Below, piece after piece: positions 1,091-57,959 of a DNA stretch of 64,000 nucleotides. The notes under the pieces are model-generated. The model was not told the DNA's origin. It was given only the letters and a program-made list of their open reading frames with translations, and made no database searches. Origin of the DNA: Selaginella tamariscina (Eukaryota; Streptophyta; Lycopodiopsida; Selaginellales; Selaginellaceae); contig PUQB01000084.1 of assembly GCA_003024785.1 (NCBI GenBank), positions 307,346 to 371,345 on the forward strand. The letters run 5' to 3'. Each line of letters opens with the position of its first letter. Position 1 is the first letter of the stretch. The translations under genes and the position numbers were made by a program.

Positions 1091-1099
1091 GCACCTCCT

Positions 1100-1810
1100 C
1101 CCTAAAGACGAGTTCCACGAGTCTTGGGACCTGGTTTAGCAGGATAATGCCGATGGAAGGCAGCAACCTTGGAAGAAGCATGGAGTAAGTTGGATGCAGG
1201 TTCCCAAGTGCGATCAGTAGGCAAATACCTTTCCAATCCACCAAGTATTGGAGTTGGTGCGATGAAGACGAGATCAAGGATGGGCTGACTTCGTACTCAG
1301 GTTCAGTGTCAATGACCACAGGAGGGGGAGGAGAAGAAACACGACCGGGAAGAGAAGAAGGATGATACGGCTCCAACAAGGAGGTGTGAAACACAGGATG
1401 AAGTTTCACCGTGGATGGTAACTCGAGTCGGAAAGCTACAGGATTTACCTCCGCCACGATCCTGTAAGGGCCCAATCGTTGAAAATCCAACTTAGAAGAA
1501 GGCCTGTTGGTGCGAATGTGTCGACGAAGAAGCCACACGAGATCACCAATCTTGTATGCAGGTGGCTGACGGTGAGCATCAGCATGATGCTTGTATCGTT
1601 CCTGTGCCTGCTGAAGATGAACCTGGAGATCATCCTGTACCTGCCGAAGATGCTGAAGACGATCCTGTACTGCAGGAGCGGAAGAAGGAGAAGCGGAGGA
1701 GCAAAGTCAAAACGTGGATGGTGGCCTGTAAGAGCAAAGAAAGGTGTCTGTCCTGTAGATGCGTGAACGGAGTTGTTGTAGGCAAACTCCGCCATTGGAA
1801 GAAGGTCCAA
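1100..1810 (-). CDS. Gypsy integrase C-terminus and chromodomain
   Basis: Minus-strand frames carrying the integrase tail ([19 protein letters not shown] at about 1700-1800, then LGPYRIVAEV and LHPVFHTSLLEPY) and a chromodomain. The chromodomain reads EYEVSPSLI, then QYLVDWKG, and after a one-base frame change TWEPASNLL and FHRHYPAKPGP. Chromodomains guide chromovirus integration toward heterochromatin marks. The aromatic cage residues (Tyr, Trp, Tyr) can be seen across the two frames, as in canonical group I chromodomains. The frameshift would truncate the domain in this copy. Confidence 0.8.
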
Positions 1811-3366: not shown

Positions 3367-3929
3367 GAATCCCTATCGAAAAAACACTTCTCCAACTTCG
3401 CGTACAGGCCATGCTCGCGAAGCCGCTCTAGAACTAGTCGTACATGCTTGTCATGTGCCGCCTGGTCCTTGGAGAAAATCAAGATGTCGTCGAGGTAGAT
3501 CACCACAAACTGGTCCAAGAAGTCACGAAAGATGTCGTTCACCATGTGTTGGAACACGGCTGGGGCATTGGTAAGGCCGAAAGGCATTACCGTGTACTCA
3601 AAATGTCCATACCTTGTACGAAAGGCAGTCTTCCACTCATCGCCGGGACGAATCCGTACAAGGTTGTAGGCCCCTCGTAAGTCGATCTTCGTGAACACCT
3701 TTGCTCCTCGCAGCCGATCGAGAAGTTCCGGGATCAATGGCAACGGGTACCGATTCCGAATGGTGACTTGATTCAAACCCCTGTAGTCCACAACCAAACG
3801 TAAACTCCCATCCTTCTTCTTGACAAAGAAGATAGGCGCTCCTGCAGGGGACTTTGAGTGACGAATGAAGCCGGATGCCAAGTTGTCCTCGATGTACTGA
3901 CGAAGAACCTCCAACTCTGTGGGTGACAA
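3306..3929 (-). CDS. Gypsy reverse transcriptase
   Basis: RNA-dependent DNA polymerase domain that copies element RNA in the particle. Fingers and palm motifs are plain: [28 protein letters not shown] (first Asp), and [11 protein letters not shown] (the YLDD active site). The frame is lost about 40 codons after YLDD, where a one-base change near 3375 moves the sequence into the next frame. The older copy reads through the same point. Family-typical up to that break. Confidence 0.93.
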
Positions 3930-4642
3930 TGCATAAATCGGTCCGAATGGTGGAGTCTTTCCTTCGCAAGATCAATAGGACAGTCGTAGGACCTGTGAAC
4001 AGGAAGAACTGCAGCCTTGTGCTTGTCAAAAACGTCCTTAAAGTGTACTTGGATGGTAGGGAAGAGGAGAAGGAGAGGAGAAGGAGTAGGAGAAGGAGAT
4101 TGAAAAACAGGAGAGTCGGATACAGGAAAGGTAGAAGAGGACGTAGGAGTTACTTGAAAGGCAAAAAGGTGGAAAGGAGCAGGATCAGTGGCGAGTTCAT
4201 GCATGGTAGTGGTAAGAACTCGGAGAGGAGAAGGAGGGAGCTGTGACTGAAAAAGAGGAAGGATCTTGGGGGTGGAACAGAAGCAGGGTAACAGAAAGAG
4301 CAGGATTGGAAAAAACCTGTGTGGTGTTGATGAGTGTACAGGATTGGAAGAATCCTGTACAGGAGTCCGTGGTTGCGCAGGAGTGGGAAAAGCCTGCGAA
4401 TGTGCTGACGAATCAACAGGAGGTGGATCCTGTTGAGGAGGAACCTTCGACACTGATACAGGATTGGAAGAACCCTGTACAGGACACCGCAAACTTACAG
4501 GAGTGGAGAGAGCCTGCGGATGTGCTGAGGAACTGACATGAGGTGAATCCTGTCGAGGAGGAGTCTTCAACACTGGTACAGGAACAGGCACGGTCAATCC
4601 TGTAGCTTGTACTGCCTCAGATACTAAGGATGTATCCTGCAC
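3930..4642 (-). CDS. Gypsy protease-RT spacer with internal duplication
   Basis: A low-complexity Ser/Pro/Thr-rich frame between protease and RT (the frame runs on to 3773). It contains two copies of a segment of about 38-40 residues with the pattern SSAH.QA..TP ... PVQ.SSNPV, around 4340-4600. The same duplication is present in the older copy near 8090-8380, so it predates the insertion of the younger one. I know of no enzymatic function for such linkers. It is probably a flexible tether in the polyprotein. Confidence 0.6.
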
Positions 4643-5406
4643 GCAGGAAGGTACAGGATTGATCCTAGCTGCGGAGAGGAAAACGTGAGCGTCCTAGACC
4701 TCCAGTCGATCTGCGGATTTGCAACAACGAACCATGGCATGCCCAAAATGATGGGAGTCGACCGAGTCTTGATCAAGTTGAAGGAAATTGAACAGTTGAA
4801 TGTGCCATACTGCAGGAGAGAGGTTGGTAGCATGGGTAACTGCGCCAGAAGCAATAGACGCCCATCGGCCACCTCTACAGGAACTGCACGCTTCAACTTC
4901 ACCACCGAAATGCCATGTTGAGTTGCAAACGTGTCATCCATGAAGCATGCATTTGCACCAGTGTCTAACAAGGCAAACTCCATGAGCTCTCGATTATTAA
5001 GATGAATGTGTACAGGAAACTTAAGTGATGGATGGTATGAGCAGCACCAATGGAGCCTGCACCTACGTCCAACTTCGCGGCTCCTAGACGAAGTGGACAT
5101 TGGAGTTTTCCGACTGAACTTCAGCTTCAACTTCACGCGTCTTGAAGTTCCTGGCTTTAATAGGACAATCTGCCACCTTGTGTCCTGCTCCACCACAATA
5201 CAAGCACAGGTTCTCACTCGACGACGTTGCTTCTCAGCAGCGGAAAGAGAGCCACGCTTGGATTTCTCAACCTCCATAGGAACTACTCCAGAAGGTGGTG
5301 CAGGAACATGTACCACAGCTGCAGGATTGGTTTGCAGGAACTGCTGACGGGATCTTTCCTGACGACGCTCGAACAAACGGTTGTCGCAACGAACAGCTTG
5401 TTGCAT
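4624..5406 (-). CDS. Gypsy nucleocapsid and aspartic protease
   Basis: C-terminal gag plus protease. The frame contains the retropepsin signature LLDTGANACFMDD, with catalytic Asp in DTGA, at about 4935-4975. The CCHC knuckle (C-x2-C-x4-H-x4-C, about 5148-5190) is readable only in the neighbouring frame. A one-base loss upstream, relative to the older copy, shifts it out, and the frame recovers before the protease. The protease would mature the Gag-Pol precursor. The product is therefore probably defective in RNA binding in this copy. Confidence 0.8.
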   Translation of the reverse strand: MQQAVRCDNRLFERRQERSRQQFLQTNPAAVVHVPAPPSGVVPMEVEKSKRGSLSAAEKQRRRVRTCACIVVEQDTRWQIVLLKPGTSRRVKLKLKFSRKTPMSTSSRSREVGRRCRLHWCCSYHPSLKFPVHIHLNNRELMEFALLDTGANACFMDDTFATQHGISVVKLKRAVPVEVADGRLLLLAQLPMLPTSLLQYGTFNCSISFNLIKTRSTPIILGMPWFVVANPQIDWRSRTLTFSSPQLGSILYLPACRIHP

Positions 5407-5412
5407 GATCTG

Positions 5413-26932: not shown

Positions 26933-27778
26933 ATGGTTGAATTTGGTGAGGATTCCTTTGGAAGCTCGTGTGGGAGCAAGCCCTTTGTGTCCAAGGGGCA
27001 GAACTTTCTGTTGTGGAAGAAGTTGTTGGAGACTCGGCTTCGTGTCAAAAGAGTTTTTGGGCTCGTCCGTGGGACTGACCCGGAGCCGCCGGAGGGCAAC
27101 TCCAATGAGACCTTTAGAATCCATCAAGAGTGGAAAGTGCGGGCTGAGCACGCCGTGGGCTGCATCTGCATTTACCTCAGCCCGGGGATTATGCTCAAGG
27201 TGGATACTGACAAGTCCTTGCTGAAGTTTGAAAGTGGCTGTCGGACACCTACGGGAAAAAGACCGATATGGAAGTCATGCAGATCCACTCGGAGCTAGGA
27301 ATGTCGAGGCTCTTAATCGTGAGGACAATCTCACATTTGAAATGGCAGTGGCAAGGCTTGTGGCCATAGCCTTGCTCTGCAAGGAGAAGGCCAAAACCAA
27401 TGCTTTGCATGAAGTCATGTATGCCAAGCGACGGGTTCCCAAGCATGAGCTGGCTGGGCGTGATGCTGTTGCACCCTTGCCGCCTCTAGCCCACGGTTCA
27501 GGCAATGCTTGGGTTGGCCGAAGTGGACGTGGACGAGCAGCTTTCAAAGGGGAACCGGAGAAGGGTGCACGAGGACACAGGGGTCGAGGACGAGAAGGTT
27601 GGCTTGGCCATGACCAATGCAAGATATGCCGAGGGTTTAGACACTGGGGTAGGGACTGCCCCCATGCAGATGGGAAGGCTAATGTCGGTGTTGAAAGTGA
27701 AAAAGGTGAATGGGAAGAAGAGTCCTTCGTAGTGGAGGAGTCCCTCAATGCTGAGAACAGCGGGAAGATGCACTCCTA
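26933..27778 (+). CDS. Copia 1 gag with CCHC knuckle
   Basis: Gag in two frames. 26933-27298 has the N-terminal gag core (FVSKGQNFLLWKKLLETRL). After a frameshift near 27260, the frame of 27228-27779 carries LTFEMAVARLVAIALLCKEK and the zinc knuckle CKICRGFRHWGRDCP (C-x2-C-x4-H-x4-C). The frame ends at a TAG just before the protease. Gag forms the particle and binds element RNA. Confidence 0.85.
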
Positions 27779-27779
27779 G

Positions 27780-28950
27780 GTGCTTGATTCAGGTTGTACT
27801 AGCCTCATGACTAATAACAAGTTGATGTTTGAACAATATATCCCAGTTCAAAGAAGTGGTGTGATGTTGGGGAACAATGCCCGATTGGACATTGCTGGTC
27901 GAGGCACTTTGACATTCCCACTTCAGGACAGTGGGGAGATGATGTTCAAAGACGCCTTGCACGTCCCAGGCATGCAGAAAAACCTTATGTCGGTGGCAAG
28001 GTTGTGTGACGACGGGAAGTCGATCGTGTTTACTAGTCATGGTGCAGATTTATATGACAAGTTGGATTTCCGTGTGACTGGGAGGAAAGTTCTCCATGCC
28101 AAGCGGTGTGGAAACTTGTATGAGATTCTCTCACACCCTCATCTTGCTGCAGCCGCTGAGAACGTCGTTGGTGCAGATGCCTATTTGTGGCATTGCCAGT
28201 TGGGTCATGCAAATCACAAGGCACTACACGAGCCACGAGCTTGTGTCCAATTGCATGGTGGAAGGCTGGATCTGAGGCCTGGTTTTTCACATGCATTTTG
28301 TGAGTCATGTGTGTTGGGCAAACATCATCGCCGAAGTTTTGGATCTTCAAAGCACCGCTCTTCAGAGCTCTTGGAGCTGGTGCACTCCGCCTGTGTGGGC
28401 CCATGGACGTCCCGAGTCATTTTGGCGCATGTTACATTCTTACGTTCATTGATGACTTCAGTTGCCTCACCAAACTTTTCTTTCTACGTCGTAAAAATGA
28501 GATGGTGGAGGCCTTCCGCGTGTACAGAGATGCGGTGGAAACTCAAGTTGGCAAGAAGCTTAAGGCCTTGCGCACGAACGGTGGCAAGGAATACCTTAAC
28601 TCCACCATGCAAGAGTTGTGTCAGAATGCTGGTATTCAACACCACGTCACCACCCGGTACACCTCCCAACAGAATGGCATGGCTGAGAGGAAGAACCGGA
28701 CGCTGGTGAATGCAGCGCAACCTTCTTGCTCATGCACATTTGGGCAAGGAGTTTTGGCAGGAGGCTATTGGTAGCCATGCATGTTCAGAACCGGTTGCCA
28801 ACTGTGGCATTGAAAGGCAAAACACCTGAGGAAGCATGGACGGGTCTGAAGCTTGATGTATCCCATCTCAGGTGTTTGGTTGCACAGCGTATGCCCATAT
28901 TCCTGACCAGCTGCGGAAGAAGCTGGACCCCAAGAGCCAGAAGTTGATCT
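27780..28950 (+). CDS. Copia 1 protease and integrase (frameshifted)
   Basis: The frame from 27780 opens with the protease signature LDSGCTSLM and runs into the GAG-pre-integrase zinc region (LWHCQLGHANHKAL ... CESCVLGKHHRRSF). Integrase continues in the frame of 28307-28774, with FIDDFS (first Asp) and MAERKNRTL (Glu). The second catalytic block reads LRTNGGKEY where copia elements normally have LRTDNGGE, so the Asp appears lost. A later frame (28872-29153) carries FGCTAYAHIPDQLRKKLDPKSQ. Integration activity is not expected from this copy. Confidence 0.85.
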
Positions 28951-35887: not shown

Positions 35888-35896
35888 CATTTTCAG

Positions 35897-36030
35897 GGGT
35901 TTGACATTTCCTCGAGCGCAGTTTGCCGAGCGTACGGATTTCCGTCATACCGGAATATTCCATTCCGTACAGAATATTCGTTTTCATATAAAGAATATTC
36001 TGGTGCGGCGGGCGGGCAATCATGGCGGCA
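35897..36030. repeat. Left inverted end of the MULE
   Basis: Imperfect inverted counterpart of about 44716-44922. It carries CTCGAGCGCAG, ATTTCCG, repeated GGAATATTCC/AGAATATTCT palindromes and CCAGAATATTCT next to the GTGCGGCGGGCGGG box. Similarity is in blocks rather than end to end, so the ends have diverged. Confidence 0.75.
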
Positions 36031-36202
36031 CGGTAATGTGTCAAAGTTTCACAAATTTGGGGGTTAATCTGACATATATATTATATATTTATATTTATAT
36101 TTATGTTTTTATTTTTTAATATTTATATTTATAACTATAATTATATTTTTATATAAATACCGCATCAAACTAAATAAAAATTACAATAAAAACATAACTC
36201 AA

Positions 36203-39200
36203 TCATGAAGACTCGTTTCCACCAGCCAGTGCCTCGTCGTTAATGAATGCATTGTTACGGTGTCGTGAACGTTTCTCCAAAATCTGTCTGTCGTAAACTT
36301 CGAACTCTTCAACCATTTTCTTTGCCATCTGATTAGCGTAGTCTGGTAGAACAATACTGAAAACATATTAAAGTTTAAAACCAAAGAAATGATAAAACAA
36401 ATCTCACTCATCATCTGATGACTCGTATGATCTCTCTTCTGCTGACTCATCTGATGACTCGTCGTTGTGCTCCACGGACTTCTCCGTAACAACATCCTTG
36501 TCGTTTCGAGAAGGCGGATCCTGGTCTCCATCGTTGTCGCTAGCCAAAGGCAAATCCTGTGCTTCTGTTTCCATGGCCCTCTTCCACTCATCAAAAGGAG
36601 TAATCATGGAAACAACTTGATCATCCCCACCACCTTCAGCTGCTGTAACACTTGGAATGACCTTCCTGAAGACATCTCTGGCTGCTAAAACCAGATCCTT
36701 GTTGATGTCGATTCCATAACCATGTCTCCCTGTGTGAAAAGCTGCAAGAATACTAGCACCGGTTCCCACTGTTAGATCCACAACAGTTCCACCAGGCTTT
36801 GTGAGCTTCTCCACTAGCATCGCAAACAACTTGGGAGATTTCGGGCCAATTGAAATCCTGAAAGTTACAATATTAGAACATGAGAAATAACAAACAACAT
36901 TATACCATGGGAGCTGGAAATCTTCTGGCTCATCAAAAAGAAGAGTGTAGCGAGTGTCCAAGATCTCCTTGTTCTTGGCAACCTTAGAGTAGGGGGAACC
37001 AAAAATACACATGGCAATGATGCTTTCCTGAAAAAATAAACATTAAAAAATGACATTCTCAAAAAGAAGAATTACCTTTCTAGAGAAACGGTATCCCCAT
37101 GACTTTGTCGTGTGCACATAACTCATCTGCAGAAACTTTAGCTTGCAAGTTTCTGCAGTGTTCTTCAAAGCTAGAACATCATCCGGTAGCACAAACACTA
37201 CCACATGGCCAGCTCTGTCTAATATCCCGAAAGCAAGGTTCACCAAGTTCTTCAGCAAAGCATCCGAGAACTTCGTGTATTGATCCACCATCCCGCCTGC
37301 CTCAGCAACGCATCCGGTAGGCGGGTCGATGACAACGAGATCAACAGCTCCCTGGATGCATTTTGGTGGAGGCTTCGCACCAAACACATGAATAGTCCAA
37401 CTTGACTTGTGACTCACGATCCAATCCTCAAGCTCCTTCAATCCTGACGGAAAAGGCCTTCCGGCTTTGAAGTACTGGACTGCAAGGTTCTCTGAATCTG
37501 CATGAATGATTTCCCAGCTTCCATTTCCCTTCTCAGGCATCACCATCCTCAACATATCATCTTCTTCCAATCCAGCCGAGATGAAGGATGGGGCTGAAGA
37601 AGAAGCTTGTCCCTTGCTGACCTTGCTCGCCGATCTAGCATACCTGATATCCATCTTCACATGGAGCTTCCTTGCAGCATTGTCGTTCTTCCATAATAGC
37701 TCTCGCCGATCATCCTTGTGTATCTTATAGCTGGCCATCTCCCATTCGGGACAGTCACCAGGAAGGAAATCCAGCCAGAAAGGACAGTGTTCCACTTCGT
37801 AATCACTGATATCACGTAACAACCGGCTCCACATGCTAGAATCCTTGGTAACATCCATCCACTCTTTGAAATCTTCAGGGAGTGCATCGTTCTTCCATTT
37901 TAAAAACCTGTAAAAATAGATAAAAATCTGTAAAGAAACAAAAAAAAAACTTGCCTGAATGCCATTCTTTTTGCAGATTTTTCCAGCTCAAATAGTCGAG
38001 GAGGTGGAATTGTCGCACCGAACTCCTTGTTCTCGAGCATGTTCTGGTACATATCCAACTTAATTTCATTGTGCATCTTCATATACCATGTCATGAACTC
38101 CTCTACATGCTCGACCAAAAGCTCTTTAGCTGCCTCCGCGACCTGGCACGATAAAACGAATAAAAATGAAAAATATAAATATTAAATTACCTGGAACCAG
38201 TAAGTAAAGATGTGCAAAAACTTGATGAAGTCCTTGTCAGGCCAGCCGGTGACACCTTCCTTCTTGTCTTTCTCCGTCATGTTCACCAGCTTCTCAAGAA
38301 CGCCACGTTCTTGAATGTGCACAAGCTTTCCAAGGATATCAACCTTGACGTTGGAAGGAAGCTGGGACTTCGCGAGCATTTGAAGCTTCTCCAGAGTTAT
38401 TTGCTTCGTTGATGGTTTGATAGTGATATCTGTGATCGCCTTGAACCAATCTTCACCGACCGCCGGATCAGCAATGGTGAGGAATTTGTTCATCCGAACT
38501 GTGAATGTCTTGTAAACGCTGGAGAGGATCTGAGATTCTGTCTGGTTTGGTTTTCTGTTCGCAAGTTTTGTAGCGATTTGTCGCTTCAGTTGATTCTGCA
38601 AAAGAAACCGAAAATCAAAAAACAGTCAAAAGAAGAAGAAAAGATTACCTCCCAAAAAATCTTCACCAATGTCGTCTTTGGATACTCGTACCAAACGTCT
38701 TCTTTTCTGTTCGATCTCCACACTTCCACAGCTTTTCTATCTTCCTCCGGCATCCCGCGAAGAACATGATCGGTAGAAAGATCTGCAGACTTCACACAAC
38801 AATTCCGTAAGAACTGCAAGGTGTGAATGATTGTTGTAGGAACCACACGAGCAGTTGCTCTGCAAAACAAAACAACATTTATTTAGTATTTAAATAATGA
38901 AACAAACAAGTCACTTACTCATTCAACCGATTGCAAGCAGCGATTAGTCTCTTCTCCTCTTGCACTGTGGATGCTATGAGTGTTGCACGTACACGCAAAG
39001 TCCATTTCAAACCTGGCTCTTCAGCAAGCAAAGTGTTCAAAGCAACCCGACGATGATTCCCATCCCACACCAGAAACTTTGCATCTTTCAGAAATCGATA
39101 CCATGCAGAAAATGCTGGCTTATGCAAATCCGCTTCAAACTCTCTATCGACCTGTGCTTCTGACTCATTCCAACTTCGGCGTTCGTCTGCACTCAGCTGT

Positions 39201-39835
39201 GGTCCGAAAGATAAGGTGAACACTGACGTCTCCTGGTAAAATCCTTCAGCTCTAATCCATCCAACAAGGTCTTTCACGCCGTCCTTAGTGACATTCCTCA
39301 AACGTTGGTGTGGGAGCAACCTGTGAACCGGGATACGCGGAGGCTCACCAAGCTCAACTGGAACGTAGTGGTCTCGTCCTTGTAGCGATGTGTCAATATC
39401 TGTGTCATACCGAATAACAAGATCCCGAAGAAGCTTGGATGGAGCCTCAAGTGTCAGCCGCTCCGGAATTGCATATGATTCGGCAACATCCTCAGGAGCA
39501 TCCAGTTTCCTCTTCTTATTGAACATTTTACTACCAAGATCAATATCCGGTACTTCCTCTGCATTACCGTGTTCTGCAGAGCTTCCTGCAATCTCCCTAT
39601 TTCTAGGCATCCATTCACTCACCACAGTATGTTCATCAATGACTTGCGAACTATCCACAGGTTCATTGTTCGTCGGCATCATCTCTTTGTGTTGCAGTTG
39701 TTGCTTGGCGCCTCGGCCTCCTTTCTTGCCACGAGGTTTTGGAGCCATATCTGCAAGAGCTTCTTGGACGATATGTTCTTGAAGTGTCAAAGTCTTGTAT
39801 TTATCTCGTAGTCTCTTACTCTGCCTTTGTCTCAT
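36203..39835 (-). CDS. ParB-like domain fused to amino-DNA-methyltransferase (1092 aa), MULE cargo
   Basis: Eight exons: 38919-39835, 38649-38859, 38191-38595, 37955-38142, 37076-37907, 36906-37027, 36408-36857, 36203-36356. All junctions keep phase with no internal stop. Intron 4 is GC-AG (AG|GCAAGT); the others are GT-AG, about 48-59 bp. An N-terminal basic region is followed by a ParB/Srx-like fold at residues about 167-300 (IPVHRLLPHQRLR, WDGNHRRVAL). A helical middle follows (about 306-600). A beta-class methyltransferase comes next: LVVIDPPTG at about 764-772, then PGGTVVDLTVGTGA at about 913-926 (SAM-binding loop). The C-terminus is acidic, then basic. The family transfers methyl to adenine-N6 or cytosine-N4. 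Here the usual aromatic of DPP(Y/F/W) is Thr, so activity is uncertain. Another 5' exon or leader intron cannot be excluded. Confidence 0.87.
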
Positions 39836-41340
39836 TCTGCAATTACAACAACTGATAAGTGTGTGTGTGTGAGTTGTTTTAATTTATGGACACACATTTA
39901 CTATATATGTATACCTATCAATATATATAGACACACACGCACACACACACATATTTATACGTGTAATGTTGTTTGTGTGTGTGCTCACTATATAATGTTC
40001 CTTGTGTATGTGTGTAATGTTGATTATGTGTGTGTGTGTGCAATGTTGTTTGTGTTTTGTGATGTGTCTGTGTGAGAGAATATGGGTATATTCATATCTC
40101 TTCACATGTATATACAGACGAAAAAGCATCATCTCATATATACAAGTCTTAAATTCATATACTTATACATACATACATACATATTATATATATATAAGTC
40201 TTTTTAAGTATGTATTTAAATATATATATTTATATATACACACACACATGTATACAAGTCTAATGTTGTATAATCATACGTGTGTAAAATGTTATTTATG
40301 TGTGTGCGCAAACACACACACACACACACACACACGGATTTCCTGCCCGAATTGGGCAGGAAATCTGCCCAGATGGTGCGGCCGCCGCACCATCCTGGCG
40401 GCAGGATTTTCCTGCCCAATTCGGCAGGAATTCCTGCCGCCCAGATGGTGCGGCCCGCACCATCCAGGCGGCAGATTTCCTGCCCGAATTGGCAGGAAAT
40501 GTGTGTGTGTGTGTGTGTGTGTGTTTGCCGAAATCGGCAATAACTCATGCGTCGGAGGTGTGTGTGTGTGTGCACACGCGCGTGCGTTTGTGAATAAAGA
40601 AATCCTACTGAATTTGCACATACATTCACAGAAATTACTACACATATATAAGATTTTACCTGTAGCCATGTCGCCGTGACGCTCACACTAGCCTCTTGTC
40701 GCCGCAAAAAAAGAACAAAAGTGCCCTCTCTCAACAATGGAGAATGGAGAAGAAGAATGGGTAGTCCTGAACCTTTACCCTAAAATCTAACACTTAACCC
40801 TTTGACCCTTAACTATAAAACTGTGTTTAATTAAACCATACAACAGTATATATAATACTTACGATAAATAACATACTATATAAAAGGATACAAATACAAA
40901 CACATATTTAAGTAAAAATTTGTATGTTAAAAAAACATATTATTATATAATTAAATAAATATTCGTGTAAAAATATGTATTTATAATTGACAATTGGTAG
41001 CGGAGCAAGTATAATCAACATCTACATTTGATAAAACTGGATCAAATAACTATATAATTATAATAAATAAATTAACAGAATATAAACAAGTCATAAATAA
41101 ATATGTCAGATGAATGTAGATTAGACACACATTTATTTAAAAGACAATAAAGATTGCTCTATCTCTACGTGAAGTGCTATACTATATTAGCATCTAAGAT
41201 CTATACGTTTCCTTGAATTAAATATTCGCCCACGTTGAGTCATGATTGTGAATTTTTGAAATGGTAATATCCGATATTTACCAAAAGATGATTAAGTAAT
41301 GCTGTTGTTTTTCTGTCACGTTTGTGTAACTGCTTGCAAA
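39836..41340. promoter_or_regulatory. Divergent intergenic region between cargo gene and transposase
   Basis: Shared upstream region of the two divergent MULE genes. It holds CA/TG microsatellites (39855-40080), the GC-rich palindrome cluster (40336-40500) and AT-rich DNA (40850-41290). On the minus strand, CTACAG|GTAAAA near 40660 and GTAATTGCAG just before the cargo ATG could bound a leader intron. No clear TATA box could be assigned to either gene. Confidence 0.5.
40311..40541. repeat. GC-rich palindrome cluster between (CA)n and (GT)n runs
   Basis: Between (CA)n (40311-40335) and (GT)n (40501-40524) lie alternating palindromes of two types. Type A pairs TTTCCTGCC with GGCAGGAAA around an AATT centre (about 40339-40363, 40405-40430, 40475-40500). 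Type B is GATGGTGCGGC...GCACCATC (40372-40394, 40444-40464). A further TTGCCGAAATCGGCAA follows at 40525-40541. The whole block can also fold end to end, because CA and GT runs flank it. Type B shares GCGGCCGCCGCAC with the right MULE end. Confidence 0.85.
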
Positions 41341-44300
41341 ATGGCCAGGATTGTTTACGGCAATTTGGATCACGATGTTCCTGTGATAGATGGTGTTGGA
41401 ATCATTCTTACTAATCAGATTAGAACGTTCTTTGGCATTTTTGATTGGCAAAGTGTTCGTCTTTTTAAACTTCTTCATGGGCAATCTGCTTTACAGATCG
41501 AAATAAACGAGGACCAAGATGCTGGAGGGAAGGATAATCCAGGATATGTTTTGTTACCGGATGAAGGACCATTGTTTAAGCTTGTCGTTGCTTCTGACTC
41601 TGAATACTCAACGTTGAAGAACCTTTTCACTTCTAATACCTGCAAAAAGGGAAGAATTCTTATCGAGGGTTCCACGATCATTCATACAAATGAATTGCCT
41701 ATTGCGTATGATGGGGATGTCATTTTTGAGCTCCCTCCTTCCGAATACAAATACAAAGGAATGAATCGGAAAGAGGATGGACATACCTGGACAGCAGGAA
41801 CGACCAGCAACTGGAATTTTCAAGCGAGGGTGTCCAGGAGCAAATGTGTTGGGAGCCTTTGCTGTATCAACCCGGACTGCCCTGCTTCTAAGGCGGATTT
41901 CCGAACTGCACTAAATGGAAAGGATGTATTGTTTCCCCACCTTCAATCGACAAACTGGCAAAAGGATTGACATGTTTTTTCTGTAAAGAAAATCCATTGT
42001 GCCTTGAAGTTTGTCATGCTGTGGCGTTTTGCGTTTTCCCAGACGACATAACCAAGACTAGATTGTTTATCCACCAGGGAAAACATTCACATCCAGTGGG
42101 TGATGGTGTTTCTGCATCGAACAAAGAAGAAATGCATATGGCGGTCCAGAATGCAACAGAAAGAACTCCCAGAGCTAGTCCAAGAGTCATCGAAATGGCA
42201 GCATGTAAAGATGCTATCTTTGGTTTCTATTAGATAATTCTGAGCCTGGAAGTTGGGATAAGCTCATGGATCATTTGCAACCATTATCAAACAATCGAAG
42301 GTACAATTAGAGTTTTACTTTGTGCTGAGCATTCTTTGATAATACCTTTGATGCAGAGTTCGTCAATGGGTAGCGTCCGCAAAGAGAACTGCTGCTGAAA
42401 TGCCAGAGAATATTGATGGATTATTGGAGCTGAAACGAAGGTTGTCTATCCCATTCATCCACGTGATTCACTATCCTGGGATGAATTTCCGTGGTTCAGA
42501 CGACCAGGCATTAGTTTTTAAGATGACGGTTTCAGGGCCAGGTTCTGGAATCGATTATGTAAGGATGTGCCAACCTCCTCTTGGCCCTTTGCAGAAGAGT
42601 TGGGTTCTACTTGATCACACACACCGTGTTGTTGATAAGTGGATCACTCTGGCATTGCATGTTTACGACCCAAAGTAAGATGTTATCTTTTTGTTGTTTG
42701 CTTAACTCTTTGATTATTTTATAGTGTGCGCCGATTATCCACCATTGCTTATGGTGACATGAAGAGACAAACGGCTGGAGCTGTGGAGAAGTTTTTTCGT
42801 GCTATGTTGGATGTCTGTTCCGAGAAGGGAATCTACAATGTGCAGTTCGCTGGGTTTATGTCCGATGAAGCAGGAGCGATCTGGCAAGCAATTAGGAATG
42901 TGTTCTTTAATGGCCAAGAAATTCCTGGACGTGAACGGAGCTGTATCTTTCACTATGAACAAGCCATACAACGTGTGACAAGGAAGTGGGTCCCTCTTGA
43001 ACATCAACAACAACATCTTCAACTTTTGAGATCATGGCCAACAGCCACATCAACAACTGATCGTGAAGAAATTGAAAATAATCTTTTCCGCTTTTGGAAT
43101 GAAAATGTGAAGGATGTTGGAGTTATGCAGACGTGGTTTTCATGGTGGGAAAGACAGAAGAATCATATTTCAAATGTTGTTCTTGAAAGCATGCCGGAGA
43201 ATGCTGCAAGGGTTGTGCCCATGACAAACCAGTCGGAGTCTGTTCACGGAAGATGGAGGAGGGCTAGAGATTCAAAATACATTTCATTGTACCAAGCTAC
43301 AATCCACGACCTGACTGAATCAGTGCGACAATGTGCTCTTGTGAAGGCTTTTAGAGATGGAAGGTATAGTGGTTCCGGGCCGACTTCAGAGGAGCTCTCA
43401 GCAAGGTTCGAGAGAAGAATGTCAAATGCTAACTCAACAACACCTACAGCAAAGGTTATCATCGACTTAGTTGAAGATGTTGCTCCATCAAGCATGCAGG
43501 ATACTGCTTTTGTGGCTGCCACGAATGTTGAACATCGCACTGTGCAAAGAAATATGGGGTCAGAGGCTGAACGATCCCACCGACCGGACATCTTCTATAG
43601 TGAACAGGTTATTCCAACACAGTGTAGACGGAAGCGACGATTGGATTTTCAACTTGCAGAAGAACATGAAGAATATGTTCTGGTTGAAGAACAAGATGTT
43701 ACACCTGGACAATGGGCGATTAGAAGATGTGGTGAAAGAAGTTCTGTGAAATGTCTGGCAGGCTTTCCCTCTTCAGGAGGTCAGTGGAGTGCTTGTGACA
43801 AAAAGATCAGTCCTAGTGGTAATCGAGTGGCTGCTCCTTGTTTTTTTGGAAGGATCAGATACAATGACAAAAAACTGGTGAAGAATGCTTTCGCTCACAA
43901 ATGATGTATTTTTGTCCAACAAACATGCTTTGCAACAGACATCCAAGACCAACTATTGTTTCTCCGCCAGCTTCTACCTCGGTTTGGAAAGTTCAAGTGG
44001 GCACGAAGCTGATAGCAATGGAGATCAATGATCTGGCAAGATCAGGTTTTATGCTAGCTGGGCTTCCTTCAGCTCATGCAGGAGTGCCAGGTTTTTCAAC
44101 ACCTCATGTTCCTTCAGTTCCTGTTGGAGTCACTGGATTTTCAACACCCCCTGCACAATTTCGTGGACCTCCTGTTCCTGCAAGTGGTCGTGCAACAAGA
44201 ACACCTTTAGGGATGTCTAAGAAACAACAGGTAAGTTTTGAAGCATGTTTGACGTTGGGAGCATATGTCGCAGAAGTTGACGTGGTTGATCCTCCAACAT

Positions 44301-44556
44301 GCATTCGCTTCAGAGTATGTGACAACGACCATACATCTGCTTGGGTTGTCATTTGTAGCGCACCATCTTGTTCATGCTCGAGTTCTGCAATGGTCGTCAG
44401 TGGGTGCCTTGCAAACATATGTATTTTGTTTACAAGCGTGTACTGGGAGCTGATCCTCGAGTTGTCAAGCATTTGCAACGTCGTACACTTGCACCCCGTG
44501 AACTAAGTTCTTTATTGATGCTACCAAGGAACCTCCATCCTCCACCATCTATTTAG
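41341..44556 (+). pseudogene. MULE transposase (frameshifted)
   Basis: DDE transposase that would cut and move the element. Order: an N-terminal region of about 165 residues; a zinc-binding module like the WRKY-GCM1 type (CVGSLCCINPDC at 41840-41876, C-x2-C near 41970, HQGKHSHPV near 42075-42100); catalytic Asp in LLDHTH (42613); Asp in MSDEAGAIW (42864) with CIFHYEQ behind it; Glu in NQSESVHGRW (43236); and a C-terminal SWIM finger (CSC near 44369, CKH near 44408). Short introns at about 42301-42357 and 42676-42723 join in phase. Three one-base losses, near 41955, 42228 and 44378, break the frame, two in homopolymers. The Met at 41341 is preferred over 41299 because of its AAAATGG context. 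Either decayed, or affected by sequence error. Confidence 0.85.
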
Positions 44557-44715
44557 TGTGTTTGGTTTGTTTTCAAACAGCTTCGGTTTTATATTTGTTA
44601 TTTCAAACTTATAATTTTCAATATAAATTTTAATGGTAATTTTATGTTTAGCATATTTTTAAGTAATTTAACATATATTTTCTTTAAATACAACAAAAAT
44701 ATACTACCATATTTT
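44557..44715. other. AT-rich spacer after transposase
   Basis: Non-coding AT-rich DNA between the transposase stop and the right inverted end. Confidence 0.6.
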
Positions 44716-44922
44716 GTATGCGGCCGCCGCACTAGAATATTCTAGAATATTCTTGAAAATTTTGGAAGGTCCAATTGTGTGTACACTTGGCAGTACGAAA
44801 AATTTCCGTACAGAATATTCGAGGATATCTAGACGGAAATCGTACGGAACAACGGAATATTCAAGAATATTCGGAAATCTAGGTCAAGCTCGTTGACCTG
44901 CGCTCGAATTTCGCCGTGCCCC
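44716..44922. repeat. Right inverted end of the MULE
   Basis: From inside outward: GCGGCCGCCGCAC, tandem AGAATATTCT, CCGTACAGAATATTC, GACGGAAATCGTACGG, GAATATTC twice, CTGCGCTCGAATTTC and CCCC before the target duplication. Confidence 0.75.
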
Positions 44923-44931
44923 CATTTTCAG

Positions 44932-45999: not shown

Positions 46000-47509
46000 G
46001 CTTTGCATATGTACTTTACCTCCTCCTCAGTCAAGGCCTTGCCACAACTCCAATTGCTGACCGATGCTCAATAAAAATTCTTTGGCTAGTAGCTTCGTGA
46101 AAATGTCCGCAAGCTGCTGACATGAAGAAATGTGTTCAACTTTCAACAATCTTGCTTTTACCAAATCTCGAACATAGTGATAATGCTTGGCAACATTTCA
46201 AGACTTCCAGTGTGTTACCTCACTCTTACACCAATCGATAGCTCCTTTGTTGTCAACATGAAGCTTGATTGGTGATATTTCTTGGCCAAGAGCTCCAAGG
46301 AAATCCTGAAACCAAAGAATTTCTCGTGAGGCAGCAAGGTATTCTGCCTCTATAGAAGAGAGAGCAACGTGAACTTGCTTCTTGCTGCTCCATAGAACCA
46401 GACTGCTTCCAAGCTGGAAACAAAATCCTGTAGTGGACTTGTAATTGTCACAGTCATCTACACGTCATCCTCACCTTCCTCCGGCTCCTCGCCGGCAGTC
46501 TGTCTAGGGTTCCAAGCTCAATGATGGCAACTAAACACGAGGGGCTACACACCATAGCATACATTAGACTTCCAAGTAGATTTCAAAACGGTACCTTTTG
46601 CATGGCCTGTTGCTCCTCCTTGCTAGAAGGACATTCAGCCTTGGTTAAGAACTTGATGTTACCAGGTTCCATACGTACAAGAGATGGATTGCAATCAGCA
46701 TAGCCATACATCTCAAGTACTTTGGTGGTCAAGTACTGTTGTTGAGATACATGAAGTAGACGTCGTTTCCTATCACGGTAAATCTCCAGTCCTAGAAAAT
46801 ATTGTGCTTCCCCAAGATCCTCCATAGCAAAAACCTTTCCAAGTTTTGCCTTAAAACACTTCAAATAATCAATGCTATTGCAAATCAAAAGTGAATCATC
46901 TACGTAAAGAGCAACTATAAGTAAAAACTTTCCTTCCCTTTTAATGTAGACGTTGGATTTTGGAGAAATGGGTGTGAAACCGTCCGCTTTGAAAAATACA
47001 TCAATTTTCTGCCACCAAGCTTGCAATGCTTGCTTAAGCCCATAAAGAGCTTTCTTGAGTTTCCATACAAGGTGCTCCTTTCCAAGAACAACATAACCTT
47101 CGGGCTGTTGGAAGATAAACTTCTTCAATGCTGTTTTAATGTCAGTATGATGAATCTCAAGATCAAAATGAGCAGCAAAAGAAAGTAAAATTCAAATGCT
47201 TATCATTTTTACCACCGGAGAGTAAGTCTTGAGATAGTCAACGCCATACTGTTGTTTGAAACCTTGTGCCACAAGCCGTGCTTTGTGACAATTGATGGAG
47301 CCATCTTCATTCAACTTAGTCTTATAGACCCAGTGGCAGCCAAGAGCTGAAGCTCCCTTTGGTAAAATCGTTACCTCAAAGGTTCCCATGTGAGTGATAG
47401 AGTCAATCTCCCTATCCATCGCTTCCTTCCAGTGAACATTATCTGAGCTAGCCATAGCCTCTTTAAAAGAGATTGGCTCTAGCACATAGGTAGCTGCATA
47501 AAATTCCAA
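46000..47509 (-). CDS. Copia 2 reverse transcriptase and RNase H
   Basis: RT in two frames (47192-47509 and 46583-47128): [51 protein letters not shown], and active site LYVDDSLLI. Sequence from about 46000 to 46420 reads HVALSSIEAEYLAASRE, HVDNKGAIDW and LADIFTKLL in the minus strand, which is copia RNase H. Stops separate the parts. Confidence 0.9.
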
Positions 47510-48122
47510 GAGATTAGAAGTAAAAGCATACGAGCACTCTGCATTTTCAATGGCTTTTTGCTTGGAATTTTCATCCGCTTTCCTCTTCCTAGCTCCTCAA
47601 TTGCTAGTGTAGGATCAACTATCACTGGAGATGGAGACATGGATTCAACTGGTTCATTATCAGCTTGGATCACTGAGTCATCTCCTTCTTGATCAAGAGA
47701 CTCTACAGCAAGATAATCATTCCAAACATCTGCATCAAGAATGTTGTCGTTCCAGAGCCACTCACGTGGAAATGTCACAAAATCAAGGTCAGGAATAAAA
47801 GCTGTCTCAAAATAAGAAGTTTCCTCAAAAAATTGTACTTCTTCCTACCTACAGATGTGAACAGTGCTAGTCGATGGATCCATCAAGCGGTAAGCATGAG
47901 GACTTGTCTCTGACATGCCTACAAACATTAGTCGTTGTCCAGAAGGTTCAAATTTTGAATGTAGATCTGAGTGAATATGTCAACAAGCAATACACCCAAA
48001 AATACGTAGATTAGCCACGTCAGGCTTAATTCCCGTAAACCGTTCTTCATGAGTTTTCCCTCTAACTGCGACAATGGGACAATGGTTAAGGAGATAGAAT
48101 ACCTTATAACTTCTGCCCAAAA

Positions 48123-48392
48123 TTACTCAGGAGCATTTGCTTGTGCAAGAAGACATCTTGCTATATCCACGATAGAACGATTCTTTTTTTTCTGCGACCC
48201 ATTATGTTGAGGTGTATATGGTTCGGTGAGTTGGCATTGAATCCTAGAAGTGGAACATAGCTGATTGAAACTGCGATTCACAAATTCACCGCCATTATCA
48301 GTCCTCAGTTTTTTGATTCGGCAACCAGTTTGGTTCTCAACCAATGCTTTCCATTCTATAAAGCAATCCAAAACTTTAGATTTAGTTTTCAA
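48123..48392 (-). CDS. Copia 2 integrase core fragment
   Basis: Carries KKLRTDNGGEFVN (second catalytic Asp) and YTPQHNGSQKKKNRS, where the usual NG(V/I)AERKNR Glu is replaced, so the DDE triad is incomplete. It is separated from the preceding frame by a stop near 48400. Confidence 0.85.
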   Translation of the reverse strand: MKTKSKVLDCFIEWKALVENQTGCRIKKLRTDNGGEFVNRSFNQLCSTSRIQCQLTEPYTPQHNGSQKKKNRSIVDIARCLLAQANAPE

Positions 48393-48401
48393 GAAATAAA
48401 C

Positions 48402-49418
48402 CTAAGTTTTTCGACTAAGATCATCCGTAAAGGTTAGGAAAGACTTAGCCTTGCTAAAAGATGGAACATGAATTGGGCCACAGACGTCACTATGAACAAG
48501 CTCCAACAGTTCATGTGCCCTACTCCCGATTGTTTTGAATGGTTGGCAATGATGCTTGCCAAGAGCACATGCCTCGCATGGAGAAAGAGTTAAATCGTTA
48601 GATACATTCAAACCATTTACCATTGGTCTCAAACTTTCAATCCCGAAAATTGAGCAATGACTTAGTCGCTTGTGCCAAAGGTCACAACTACCTTTGCCAA
48701 CTGAAGCTAGAATTAAGGAATTGGTTGACACCTTATCCTTAAGATGGTACAAATTTTCTTTCCCAGGTGCTACGGCAACCACATTGTTAGAATACTTTCT
48801 TTGGATAATACAAGTCGTATCATTAAAAACGACCGTATTACCCATATCAGTTATTTTAGCAACAGAAAGTAAATCTTTGCGTAAGGAAGGTACCCTAGCG
48901 AGTGTGAGATCCCCTTTAGATGTGTGAATGCTGATTTCACCGATTCCATGCACGTGATGCTCACTATTGTCTCCCAGTTGAACTGCATGTTGGCCAAGAC
49001 AATCACGATACTTAACATAATGATCCTTATGCCAAGTCAGGTGAGTAGTAGCACTAGAATTTATCACAAAAGAGCCTTTTACCGTTGTGTTGTTGCAAGC
49101 TTCGGTTTTGATCTTAGCAACACAAGCCTCCTCAAGTAGGCGTCCATAGTTAGCTGATGACTTCCTAGACTTGATCTCCTCCAATTGCTTTTGAAGATGT
49201 TTCATCTTCAATCTGCATTCACTCTCATCATGGTTAGCTTTGTTATAGTAACCATAATTTTTCTTTTTCTTATCCTTCCCATTCTCCTTCAGCTTGGACG
49301 TGTTCAACCCTCCTTCTGATTTTCCCTTGTTCTTTTTCTTCCTTGCAATTTGCTTAGAAGTTCTTGCAAACAAGGCTTGATCAGAATTTGAGCTACCAAT
49401 TCCCACATCCTTCCGCAT
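48402..49418 (-). CDS. Copia 2 nucleocapsid, protease and integrase start (key residues lost)
   Basis: A long open frame of 338 codons. The knuckle region reads YGYYNKANHDESEC, where copia proteins have C-x2-C-x4-H-x4-C; both first cysteines are gone. The protease signature, normally (L/I)DSGA(T/S), is NSSATTHL: the catalytic Asp is Asn. The pre-integrase region is sound (LWHKRLSHCS ... CEACALGKHHCQPF) and leads to HSDVCGP and the first integrase Asp in FTDDLS. The frame is thus intact in length but inactive in predicted chemistry. Confidence 0.9.
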   Translation of the reverse strand: MRKDVGIGSSNSDQALFARTSKQIARKKKNKGKSEGGLNTSKLKENGKDKKKKNYGYYNKANHDESECRLKMKHLQKQLEEIKSRKSSANYGRLLEEACVAKIKTEACNNTTVKGSFVINSSATTHLTWHKDHYVKYRDCLGQHAVQLGDNSEHHVHGIGEISIHTSKGDLTLARVPSLRKDLLSVAKITDMGNTVVFNDTTCIIQRKYSNNVVAVAPGKENLYHLKDKVSTNSLILASVGKGSCDLWHKRLSHCSIFGIESLRPMVNGLNVSNDLTLSPCEACALGKHHCQPFKTIGSRAHELLELVHSDVCGPIHVPSFSKAKSFLTFTDDLSRKT

Positions 49419-49486
49419 GATTATCTCTCCTTAACGGCAAGTATTGCACAGCTAAGTTGAAGCTTCTCAACCTGCATCAAGTTTCT

Positions 49487-50010
49487 TCAAAGGGAGTGAA
49501 AAGAGTTGGGTAAAGAATGAAGAAAAAAGTAATTTTGGAGGGAAGGAGGAAGCTTGTTGTCTTTGTCGGACTCCTCAATTTGCCTGTACGTGTTCTTCAT
49601 GTTGTCCACAAACTGGTCAAAGTTCTTAGATTCGGACCACCGCATATTGACCATCTTTGTGTAGAGGTGTCCAATCTGCACATGAGTCTGCAACTTGTGC
49701 TTGTCGTAGAGCTTCTTCCACAAATCTTTGCTGGTGTAGTTCTCCTCGAGATTGAGATCATCTAACACACTCTCCGTCACAGCTAATCCAATCGTTGCCG
49801 TGCCTTTATCCTCTCGCCGACTCCAGGTGTCCAGCTTTTGGTATCTAGCATCAACTTCTGGTTTGAGCTCGTCTCCATTGACCACGCCCCAAACTCCCTC
49901 GCCTTTGAGGATGAGCTCCATTCGGCGTCTCCAGCTTGAGAAATTTTCAAAACCATCAAAAATGGTAATGGAACAGCCGTTGGAGAATGTGACGGTAGCA
50001 ACATCTCCAT
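49487..50010 (-). CDS. Copia 2 gag
   Basis: N-terminal Gag of the UBN2/retrotran_gag type. A start-proximal frame from 50010 (FNGxN-like region) shifts into the frame of 49487-49921: TWSRREDKGTATIGLAV, LWKKLYDKHK, LYTKMVNMRWSESKNFDQFVD. The frames overlap, so one frameshift is implied. Confidence 0.85.
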
Positions 50011-50034
50011 CTTTCTAACCCTGCTCCGCTACCA

Positions 50035-56181: not shown

Positions 56182-56415
56182 CCGGGGCACCACTTCAATG
56201 ACAACTGGACAGCGTAGGCGCCACGCAGGTGCCAGCGTGACACAGTAGATACGAATAAATACTTGCAAATGAACAGTATTTTTCTGTCGTGTCGTTATGT
56301 GGTTGGTGGAGGGTACATCAGCCTACATGGCACGTGGCAGATGCCGGGTAATTCAACTCTCCATATTGTGACATGTCCACTGGCATTGTAAGCAACGAAG
56401 AGTTTCAAAACACTG
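56182..56415 (+). promoter_or_regulatory. Promoter-like module, copy B, upstream of the MFS gene
   Basis: Third copy of the module: GGCACCACTTCAATGACAACTGG, GGCGCCACGCAGGTGCC, G-box in GGCACGTGGCAG (about 56328-56339), and GTGACATGTCCACTGGCATTG. Similarity to copy A2 stops after AGAGTTTCAAAA. The downstream part with the TATA box is missing, and the MFS start codon follows about 30 bp later. Confidence 0.65.
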
Positions 56416-56447
56416 AAATATTAGTGCATTACATACATGTTTTGGGC

Positions 56448-57959
56448 ATGGAGTCCAGCAAGTGGTTAGCACTAGCAGGAGCCATATGGATCATGCTAGT
56501 AGATGGGGGTGGTTACAACTTTAGTCTGTATTCACAAGCACTCAAGGAAGCACTAAACTACTCACAGAACACAGTAAGCACAATTGCATTCTTCAGAGAT
56601 ATCGGTTCCACTTTGGGTATCCATTGTGGCATTGTGTACAAGTTATGGGGACCGCGAGTAGTACTTCTGTCAGGTGCATGCTTGAATTTTGTGGGGTATT
56701 TCGTACTGTGGTTGATCGTAACTCACAAGGTTGCAAATCCTGGTGTAGTCGTTGTTTCGCTCCTGTTTTTCTTGCTCGCAAATTCACAAGCATTTGGATT
56801 TACATGCGCTATGATCACCAGCGTGAAGAACCTTCCCCAAGATAGGGGCTTCGTTATTGGGGTGATAACAAGCTTTGTCGGTCTCAGCGGTGCAGTTTTA
56901 GCCCTGGTTTTTGAAATGATTTACAAACAGAACACAGTTGATTATCTGCTCTTCAATTCCTGGTTTACATCTGGTGTTTTTCTGTTTTGCATGCCACTCA
57001 TGCAGCTTGTGGACAGTTCAGAGAGCGGTCGGTTCCAGAGGTTTTCGGTGCTCAGTCTGGTTACTGCTGGCTACCTGTTCGTGGTAATCCTTCTCAAGGT
57101 GCTATTCAACATAAACCAGCTGGCACATTGCATCCTAACCGCAGTCTTGCTAGTCGGTGTATTAGCAGCTCCGTTCCTGGTAACGTTGGGGAGCAGCAGA
57201 AACCCACCCAAACATGGAGATTACGAAAACAGTGTAAACACTAACACACATGCAGCACAAGTGGAGGAGCTAAAGAGTGAGACACCCGAGAGAGGGGAGA
57301 ATTTCACTGTTTGGCAGGCTCTGACCAGCGTGGATATGTGGATAATCTTTTTGTCGAGCATATGTGGGCTTGGATCCGTCCTAGCTGCGTTAGATAACAT
57401 GGGGCAGGTTGGGACAGCTTGGGGCTACACAACACACCAGGTAACAAACTCGGTATCTTTTACAAGCATATGGAACTTCTTGGGCAGAATAAGTGCAGGC
57501 TGGATATCTGAGGCGCTCTTAGGAAGATATGGCACACCGAGGCCTCTGGTATTTTCTGCAACCCTAATGATTACCGCACTCGGTCACTTGTTTATAGCTC
57601 TCAGACCGTCCCCAGCTGCATTGTTGCTTGCATCAGCTCTTCAGGGGTTTTCACATGGAGCACTGCTAACACTGATTTTCACCATGACGTCAGAGCTCTT
57701 TGGGTTAGAGAACTTTGCAACACTCTACAGCGTGGGAACCGTGGTGTCTGCTACAGTGGGTACTTATTCCCTCTCTGTGTTGCTTGCGGGAGACATGTTT
57801 GACAGGGAATCTAGAAAAGAACATCAACGGATGTGCCATGGTGTTGTTTGCTATCAGGAGAGCTTTTTTATCATGGCTGGTGTGTGCGTGTTTGGTTCGT
57901 TTCTGAGCTTGTTTTTGGCATTTCGGGCTAGGCATTTCTATAAAAAGAAGAGGATGTAG
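56448..57959 (+). CDS. Nodulin-like (NFD4-type) major facilitator superfamily transporter
   Basis: An intact single-exon frame of 503 residues. I chose the Met of MESSKWLALAGAIW because it matches the family N-terminus. The open frame extends 25 codons upstream, into the duplicated module. The N-terminal half is the nodulin-like domain: GAIWIMLVDGGGYNFSLYSQ, FFRDIGSTLGIHCGIVYKLWGP, and LPQDRGFVIGV. A hydrophilic loop (about residues 250-290) separates it from a second MFS half with VWQALTSVDMWIIFLSS, FLGRISAGWISE and GALLTLIFTMTSELFG. About twelve membrane segments are visible by eye. The C-terminal tail is short and basic (HFYKKKRM). Substrate unknown. It is somewhat shorter than many family members, which usually have introns. 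Confidence 0.9.
   Translation: MESSKWLALAGAIWIMLVDGGGYNFSLYSQALKEALNYSQNTVSTIAFFRDIGSTLGIHCGIVYKLWGPRVVLLSGACLNFVGYFVLWLIVTHKVANPGVVVVSLLFFLLANSQAFGFTCAMITSVKNLPQDRGFVIGVITSFVGLSGAVLALVFEMIYKQNTVDYLLFNSWFTSGVFLFCMPLMQLVDSSESGRFQRFSVLSLVTAGYLFVVILLKVLFNINQLAHCILTAVLLVGVLAAPFLVTLGSSRNPPKHGDYENSVNTNTHAAQVEELKSETPERGENFTVWQALTSVDMWIIFLSSICGLGSVLAALDNMGQVGTAWGYTTHQVTNSVSFTSIWNFLGRISAGWISEALLGRYGTPRPLVFSATLMITALGHLFIALRPSPAALLLASALQGFSHGALLTLIFTMTSELFGLENFATLYSVGTVVSATVGTYSLSVLLAGDMFDRESRKEHQRMCHGVVCYQESFFIMAGVCVFGSFLSLFLAFRARHFYKKKRM

Follow-up and report, generated by a model that had tools for sequence, protein, structure and literature searches.

VANC proteins of the VANDAL transposons bind a short motif that is clustered in their own element; VANC21, for instance, binds YAGTATTAY repeats and causes hypomethylation (PMC5735166). 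Certain fungal DNA transposons carry a DNA-modification enzyme of the TET/JBP family, which is thought to have originated in the conflict between phages and bacteria (PMC12730594), and bdelloids have N4CMT, a bacterial-type amino-methyltransferase linked to transposon control (PMC8885841). The methylation state of sites in the ends of IS10/Tn10 and Ac/Ds controls the binding of their transposases (PMC5371812), and a survey reports that fusions of an N6_N4 methyltransferase with ParB are common among phages and over-represented in prophages (PMC12704722). We analysed a 64,000-nucleotide stretch of the Selaginella tamariscina genome (hereafter referred to as the window; bases 307346–371345 of contig 1215 in an assembly of 300,702,823 bases and 1391 contigs) and found in it a transposon that encodes a ParB-methyltransferase fusion protein together with a transposase. 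On balance, we consider it probable that this element represents an autonomous-type two-gene DNA transposon family, similar to Mutator-like elements (MULEs), in which the transposase is paired with a divergently oriented, phage-type ParB-methyltransferase that acts on the element's own DNA ends. The borders of the element, the gene pair, its near-identical copies, the recurrence of the pair in two diverged families, the domain identities and the end clusters of the motif GAATATTC were established directly.

As in VANDAL/VANC, a MULE-type element has a further gene, whose product is an accessory protein directed at DNA, and a short motif is clustered in its non-coding DNA, but the present motif is palindromic and has exact matches only near the ends; this likeness is one of published descriptions. 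The fungal TET/JBP elements likewise carry a DNA-modification enzyme, but theirs is a dioxygenase rather than a methyltransferase, and they reside in fungi and belong to other transposon superfamilies. The bdelloid enzyme differs in being a host gene for transposon silencing, with a chromodomain and the motif SPPY, whereas the plant gene is the transposon's own. Similarly, the methylase acting on IS10/Tn10 and Ac/Ds is supplied by the host, while the methylase-like gene described here is borne by the element.

Joining the eight exons of the ParB-methyltransferase gene (Table 1) gave 1092 codons and reproduced exactly, from the raw sequence, the coordinates of the model proposed in a first-pass annotation of this DNA. 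The gene spans 3,633 bp with a coding part of 3,279 nt, stop codon included. Six of its seven introns are of the GT-AG type (48–59 nt) and one is GC-AG (intron 4, 47 nt). For five of the seven, an intron was also called at the corresponding place in the protein in one copy each of two further families (see below), which provides independent support for the exon model.

As judged from its sequence, the protein is a phage-type fusion of ParB with a beta-class amino-methyltransferase. It matched the Pfam profile N6_N4_Mtase (PF01555) with an E-value of 3.8e-8 and a score of 34.0 bits against a cut-off of 26.7 (39.6 bits for its counterpart in L042, the copy representing a related family), and its residues 640–1023 matched PHROG 67, 'DNA methyltransferase' (E 7.6e-11). 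When aligned to phage-type enzymes, it has the beta-class motif order IV ... X, I, with a PKS motif (motif X) at residue 897 and a GxG for binding S-adenosylmethionine (SAM). The Pfam search gave no match to PF02195 (ParB) in the 1092-residue protein; the ParB part gave matches to DndB (PF14072, E 7e-4, below the cut-off; TIGR03233, E 0.017) and contains the core R...G...DGNHR pattern of the ParB/Srx superfamily. When compared by hhalign with phage-type relatives part by part, the ParB part scored 97.0% (E 1.1e-10; 0.096 or worse for eight column shuffles and a reversal) and the methylase part 96.9% (E 1.6e-10; 0.048 or worse for eight column shuffles). Whole-alignment profile-profile comparisons detected the methylase part only (94.8% and 96.2%), and the long middle region had no Pfam match. 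Of the two Pfam profiles that the first-pass annotation had named, therefore, PF01555 was significant and PF02195 was not matched, while the fusion that it had recognized was borne out, both domains matching phage fusions against shuffled controls.

Among PDB sequences, a profile made from the three families ranked CcrM (1.6e-5) and MboIIA (3.3e-5) highest, followed by the putative modification methylase 2zie (8e-4) and DpnA-named chains (about 1e-3). An AlphaFold2 model of the methylase part (263 residues, window positions 36638–37426, with two in-frame introns read through) had a mean predicted local distance difference test score (pLDDT) of 58.9 and of 71–86 in core blocks. Its best Foldseek matches were CcrM 6pbd, TTHA0409 and MboIIA (E about 1e-11, TM about 0.5), with M.BceJIV among the closest, RsrI further down and the bdelloid N4CMT 8s9o also among the matches; the rows of the alignment used for this model were phage-type methyltransferases, hence the fold match is not independent evidence. 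A model of the ParB part was discarded as unusable (mean pLDDT 46.1).

The sole protein found by the three-family profile was the prokaryotic-type P0002 (517 residues, E 4.2e-3; 7994 candidates scored), which has a ParB-like domain with VLWDGNHRFEAL and WDGNHR, a sub-threshold HTH_ParB and a full N6_N4_Mtase domain, and which has relatives of near full length and 39–89% identity in IMG/VR (L044–L047). The plant protein shares with these phage fusions the domain order, the DGNHR-type ParB motif and the beta-class order IV-X-I. It differs from them in that its gene is spliced and located in a eukaryotic DNA transposon, and in that it is twice as long as P0002, includes a large middle region that no Pfam profile matched, and has no detected helix-turn-helix and a non-canonical motif IV. 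Searches of 5.8 billion proteins returned nothing at E 0.001 with residues 100–1092 (7992 candidates scored) and nothing at E 1 with the methylase domain (1960 candidates). Single domains compared with phages by tblastn gave matches at E 0.05–6 only, and none of 19 pattern matches of the three-family profile in viral contigs was confirmed.

The borders of the element were defined with 20 full-length copies, fetched at about 9.8 kb each from perfect exon-5 rows; 11 more diverged copies were read in part. Because they were chosen by a perfect exon-5 match, the 20 copies over-represent young ones. Homology to the window began at 35894–35902 in 19 of the 20 copies (36601 in L016) and ended at 44922–44927 in all of them, and the terminal inverted repeats are imperfect, with TCGAGCGCAG as their common part. 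A matching direct repeat was present in 15 of the 19 copies with both junctions located (the window and 18 of the 20, excluding L016 and L027), the four without it being L014, L020, L021 and L023; among mismatched pairs used as controls, 1 of 342 matched. Eight of these repeats were called at 9 bp (one with a mismatch) and seven at 10 bp, the terminal C or G leaving the length ambiguous. With the borders and the 9-bp duplication defined in this way, the gene lies inside a transposon, as had been claimed.

The exon-5 open frame has at least 134 matching rows in the genome, of which at least 25, the window included, are identical over 314 residues; these counts are lower bounds, with 126 of 1152 candidates scored. 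Nine of the 20 fetched copies match the window at every base of the 3,633-bp gene, without an indel, and the 1092 codons are uninterrupted in the window and ten of the 20. The remaining fetched copies have 0–5 substitutions and 1–8 indel events in the gene, differences that seem for the most part to be assembly errors. The element is a many-copy, recently spread transposon family. That it arose by contamination or misassembly has a negligible likelihood: the single-base deletions in many copies do resemble long-read errors, but spliceosomal introns, at least 122 merged places on many contigs and target duplications with differing flanks speak against it. The variable G+C-rich block between the divergent genes (Table 1) contains, in the window, an 18-bp perfect palindrome, CGGCAGGAATTCCTGCCG; between the divergent genes of L042 (positions 4875–5289) there are five perfect palindromes of 22–28 bp around CCCAGTCGGCATGCCGACTGGG. 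Either could be an operator or a parS-like array.

Across the assembly, we found at least 122 merged ParB-methylase places and at least 103 merged transposase places, fragments included, which form at least 79 divergent pairs 3–9 kb apart, the window included; 67 of the 79 are spaced by 4.5–5.0 kb. The first-pass annotation would have been refuted by copies never linked to MULE ends; linkage was found instead, and the gene is a spliced plant gene rather than a contaminant, as that annotation had held. A PF01555 search of the genome gave at least 150 places over the cut-off (739 candidates), and the lower-scoring window copy was not among the matches listed; most of these had an open frame of 106 residues resembling the one in L042. 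Two diverged families, F2 (L042) and F3 (L043), carry the same divergent methylase-transposase pair as the window family (F1). In the longest blast pieces, the methylase is 27% (L042, E 3e-44) and 24% (L043, E 1e-37) identical to that of the window, and the transposase 37% and 41%, respectively. WDGNHR is invariant across the three families. A splice-aware alignment placed introns at residues 306, 377, 574, 852 and 892 in both L042 and L043, as in the window; window intron 3 was uncalled in them, intron 7 lies outside the aligned part, and extra introns were assigned to poorly aligned stretches (residues 106, 119 and 690 in F2; 89, 680 and 757 in F3). The L042 target duplication, read by eye, is GTTTTCTTA / GTTTTCTTG, while a search of the L043 ends gave no clear target duplication. 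The F2 right end reads ...GTCGGGACTC in six of seven copies (L060–L065 and L042; L065 is one base off), and just inside it is a variable number of GGAAGCCC repeats (L042 8760–8900).

Since the gene pair, its layout and five intron positions are kept in two families at about 30% identity, the ParB-methylase would be a maintained element gene rather than chance cargo. Replacement changes are also depressed. Between L042 and L043, the proportions of replacement and silent differences (pN/pS) were 0.356/0.806 for the ParB-methylase and 0.244/0.794 for the transposase, with silent sites saturated. Among seven older window-family copies, the differences common to two or more, omitting sites near gaps, comprised 24 replacement, 27 silent and 0 stop changes against a neutral expectation of 33.2, 16.5 and 1.3, whereas private differences were closer to neutral (125, 80 and 10 against 137, 65 and 13). 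This pattern is consistent with selection acting while the lineage moves and with decay once a copy has inserted. Capture of host genes is described for MULEs (PMC9168764), and the ParB-methylase could in principle be such passive cargo, carried but unused after an ordinary capture of the Pack-MULE type; the conservation of both genes, layout and introns in three families, together with the depressed replacement changes, makes this very improbable, and the gene does not look like a captured piece of a host gene free of selection. The earlier description of a transposon that had captured such a module is right as to the phage-type module but understates the matter, in that the ParB-methylase seems, from these comparisons, to be of old standing and to have been retained as the second gene of a transposon lineage with several families.

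The partner gene encodes a transposase, whose reading frame in the window is interrupted by deletions of single bases that nearly every other copy retains. These are probably long-read assembly errors, and translations from this assembly need care. Its 1037 residues are uninterrupted in five of the 20 other copies (16 of which were readable), and both genes are uninterrupted in four (L018, L025, L026 and L028). The residues D407, D474 and E598 and a CxxH at 500–503 are invariant in the three families, with spacings (67 from D407 to D474, 26 on to CxxH, 124 from D474 to E598) comparable to the 63, 21 and 112 of a host MULE. The C-terminal CxC..CxH resembles SWIM, a profile that was just below the Pfam cut-off in L042 and L043 (E 0.0014 and 0.01) and had no match in the uninterrupted window-family protein. 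A third intron was dropped, since the unspliced frame gives this CxC..CxH. The window element is not among the 77 PF10551 (Pfam MULE) rows of the genome, and comparison of the transposase by hhalign with one PF10551-positive host MULE (L059) showed no similarity (0.8%). The host has ordinary PF10551 MULEs as well, 16 of whose rows share an identical top score.

The first-pass annotation had spoken of a MULE. The 9-bp duplication and the terminal inverted repeats agree with that label, and the DD-CxxH-E spacing resembles that of a host MULE, but there was neither a PF10551 match nor profile similarity to the host MULE compared, and we therefore call the element MULE-like; for the transposase, this designation is based on the 9-bp duplication, the DD-CxxH-E pattern and the sub-threshold SWIM of the related families only. 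The same null results, with the lack of a SWIM match in the 1037-residue protein, would be expected of a separate, undescribed DDE superfamily with 9-bp duplications that is not Mutator. We consider such a placement unlikely in view of the comparable spacing of the acidic residues and CxxH, the SWIM scores of the related families and the 9-bp duplications themselves.

All eight exact occurrences of GAATATTC in the 64-kb window lie inside the element ends, at 56, 75 and 96 bp from the left end and 50, 60, 102, 170 and 180 bp from the right end. L042 (10 kb) has three near each end and L043 (9 kb) two near each end, with none between. Among 18 other window-family copies, 14 have eight, while L012 has 7, L021 6, L010 10 and L009 11. 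Judging from its flank, GAGTCCCGACAAAA, L009 seems to have landed in an end of an F2-type element. In the ends of F1 (8) and F2 (6) the motif outnumbers every other 8-mer, and in those of F3 (4), which were set by eye, it shares first place, whereas 2000 simulated F1 ends contained it 0.03 times on average and once at most. Given this clustering and the simulations, GAATATTC is likely a conserved functional site. Being a palindrome with adenines on both strands, it would suit a beta-class methylase or a ParB-like binder, and also a transposase. Concentration of GAATATTCTAGAATATTC at the element ends is predicted for all families.

It could well be, however, that these clusters are transposase sites or heat-shock elements and that the ParB-methylase acts elsewhere. 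Tandem GAAnnTTC resembles a heat-shock element, and AGAATATTCTAGAATATTCT agrees with the heat shock factor consensus nGAAnnTTCn; both genes have the clusters at their 3′ ends and a long way from their promoters, a position ill-suited to a heat-shock promoter. As for the transposase, Ac provides a precedent in having transposase-binding sites in its ends (PMC5371812).

Returning to the two-gene transposon with a self-directed ParB-methyltransferase, several observations weigh against it. Under the pairing rule, 43 methylase and 24 transposase places are unpaired, some of them (C35, C336, C563 and C1137) with a partner further off on the same contig. F2 and F3 are represented by one copy each, in which the frames are broken (five and eight times in the methylase, eight and two times in the transposase of L042 and L043, respectively), and therefore intact genes are not established in these families. 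Finally, the catalytic motif [DNS]PP[YFW] is absent from all three families, and in the bdelloid N4CMT methylation was lost when both catalytic residues were changed (SPPY to APPA; PMC8885841).

Motif IV reads DPPT in the window and in 29 of the 31 window-family copies fetched, with L034 and L036 carrying changes within it, and DLPN in both L042 and L043, while five aligned prokaryotic-type relatives have DPPY (three), DPPF (one) and DIPY (one). As neither plant form conforms to [DNS]PP[YFW], DNA methylation by the plant protein is unproven. The families retain SAM motif I (VGTG, GSGTG) as well as the PKS motif X, and this combination makes it a substantial possibility that the protein is a pseudoenzyme, namely a SAM-binding but catalytically dead methyltransferase fold serving as a DNA-bound scaffold or anti-silencing factor, much as METTL14 supports METTL3. 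On the other hand, all three families keep the Asp and the second Pro of motif IV unchanged, and the aspartate may yet contribute to catalysis. The earlier proposal that the element may use DNA methylation is thus left with the retained SAM motifs in its favour and the loss of the motif IV aromatic residue against it. A more specific version, in which the protein writes N6-methyladenine or N4-methylcytosine (6mA/4mC) at the subterminal GAATATTC and the methylation state gates transposase access, telling fresh from replicated or silenced ends, appears doubtful.

For the favoured two-gene element, we envisage the following course of events. The lineage would have acquired the ParB-methylase once and long ago, as the shared introns imply, and kept it under selection. 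The protein would bind DNA of its own element, with the subterminal GAATATTC as the most likely target, by means of the ParB-type domain and the long middle region, and SAM might be used at the ends, either for amino-group methylation or as a SAM-dependent switch. Whether the transposase or host silencing can reach the ends would thereby be regulated, and with it excision or silencing, in a way comparable to VANC in VANDAL elements or to methylation state in Ac and IS10.

Table 1. Coordinates of the transposon and its features in the window
Feature	Position	Strand	Basis or remark
Complete element of 9,026 bp, with ends GGGTTTGACA... and ...GTGCCCC	35897..44922		Blast of fetched copies, junctions, alignment of terminal inverted repeats
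Left 9-bp target-site duplication CATTTTCAG	35888..35896		
Right 9-bp target-site duplication CATTTTCAG	44923..44931		
Left subterminal cluster, GAATATTC x3 (35953, 35972, 35993)	35953..36000		
Right subterminal cluster, GAATATTC x5 (44735, 44745, 44813, 44855, 44865)	44735..44872		
ParB-methyltransferase gene, 8 exons, 1092 aa	36203..39835	minus	Rebuilt from raw sequence; start ATG at 39835, stop ending at 36203
ParB-fold motif WDGNHR, residues 257–262	39050..39067	minus	Invariant in three families; aligned with phage WDGNHR
Methyltransferase motif IV, DPPT in place of [DNS]PP[YFW], residues 768–771	37316..37327	minus	
SAM-binding motif I DLTVGTGA, residues 919–926	36755..36778	minus	Family conservation and phage-type alignment
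G+C-rich palindromic block between divergent genes, variable among copies	40334..40500		Blast alignment broken here in 19 of 20 copies (exception L022)
Transposase gene, 3 exons, introns 42301–42356 and 42675–42724	41341..44556	plus	Frame broken in window copy

Elsewhere in the window, open frames at 933–5412, 27225–28774 and 46583–50014 resemble, by eye, pieces of Ty3-type and Ty1-type retrotransposons, and a 535-residue open frame at 56352–57959 resembles a membrane transporter (nodulin-like, major facilitator superfamily).

In the literature searched, which left out most subscription articles and repeat databases, we found no account of a plant transposon with a ParB-methylase; an earlier mention may exist. 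Transposon-borne epigenetic modifiers are known (VANC, TET/JBP), but a phage-type ParB with an amino-methyltransferase as a plant transposon gene did not come up in these searches. Our results suggest that a plant transposon has recruited a phage-type module for DNA marking to serve its own ends. They offer a concrete, testable case of prokaryotic DNA-marking machinery serving a eukaryotic mobile element, with a candidate target site, and near-identical copies are so many that activity may be observable now. If amino-methylation of the ends were true, this plant transposon lineage would have its own sequence-specific amino-methylation system, a self-encoded eukaryotic counterpart of the Dam control of IS10.

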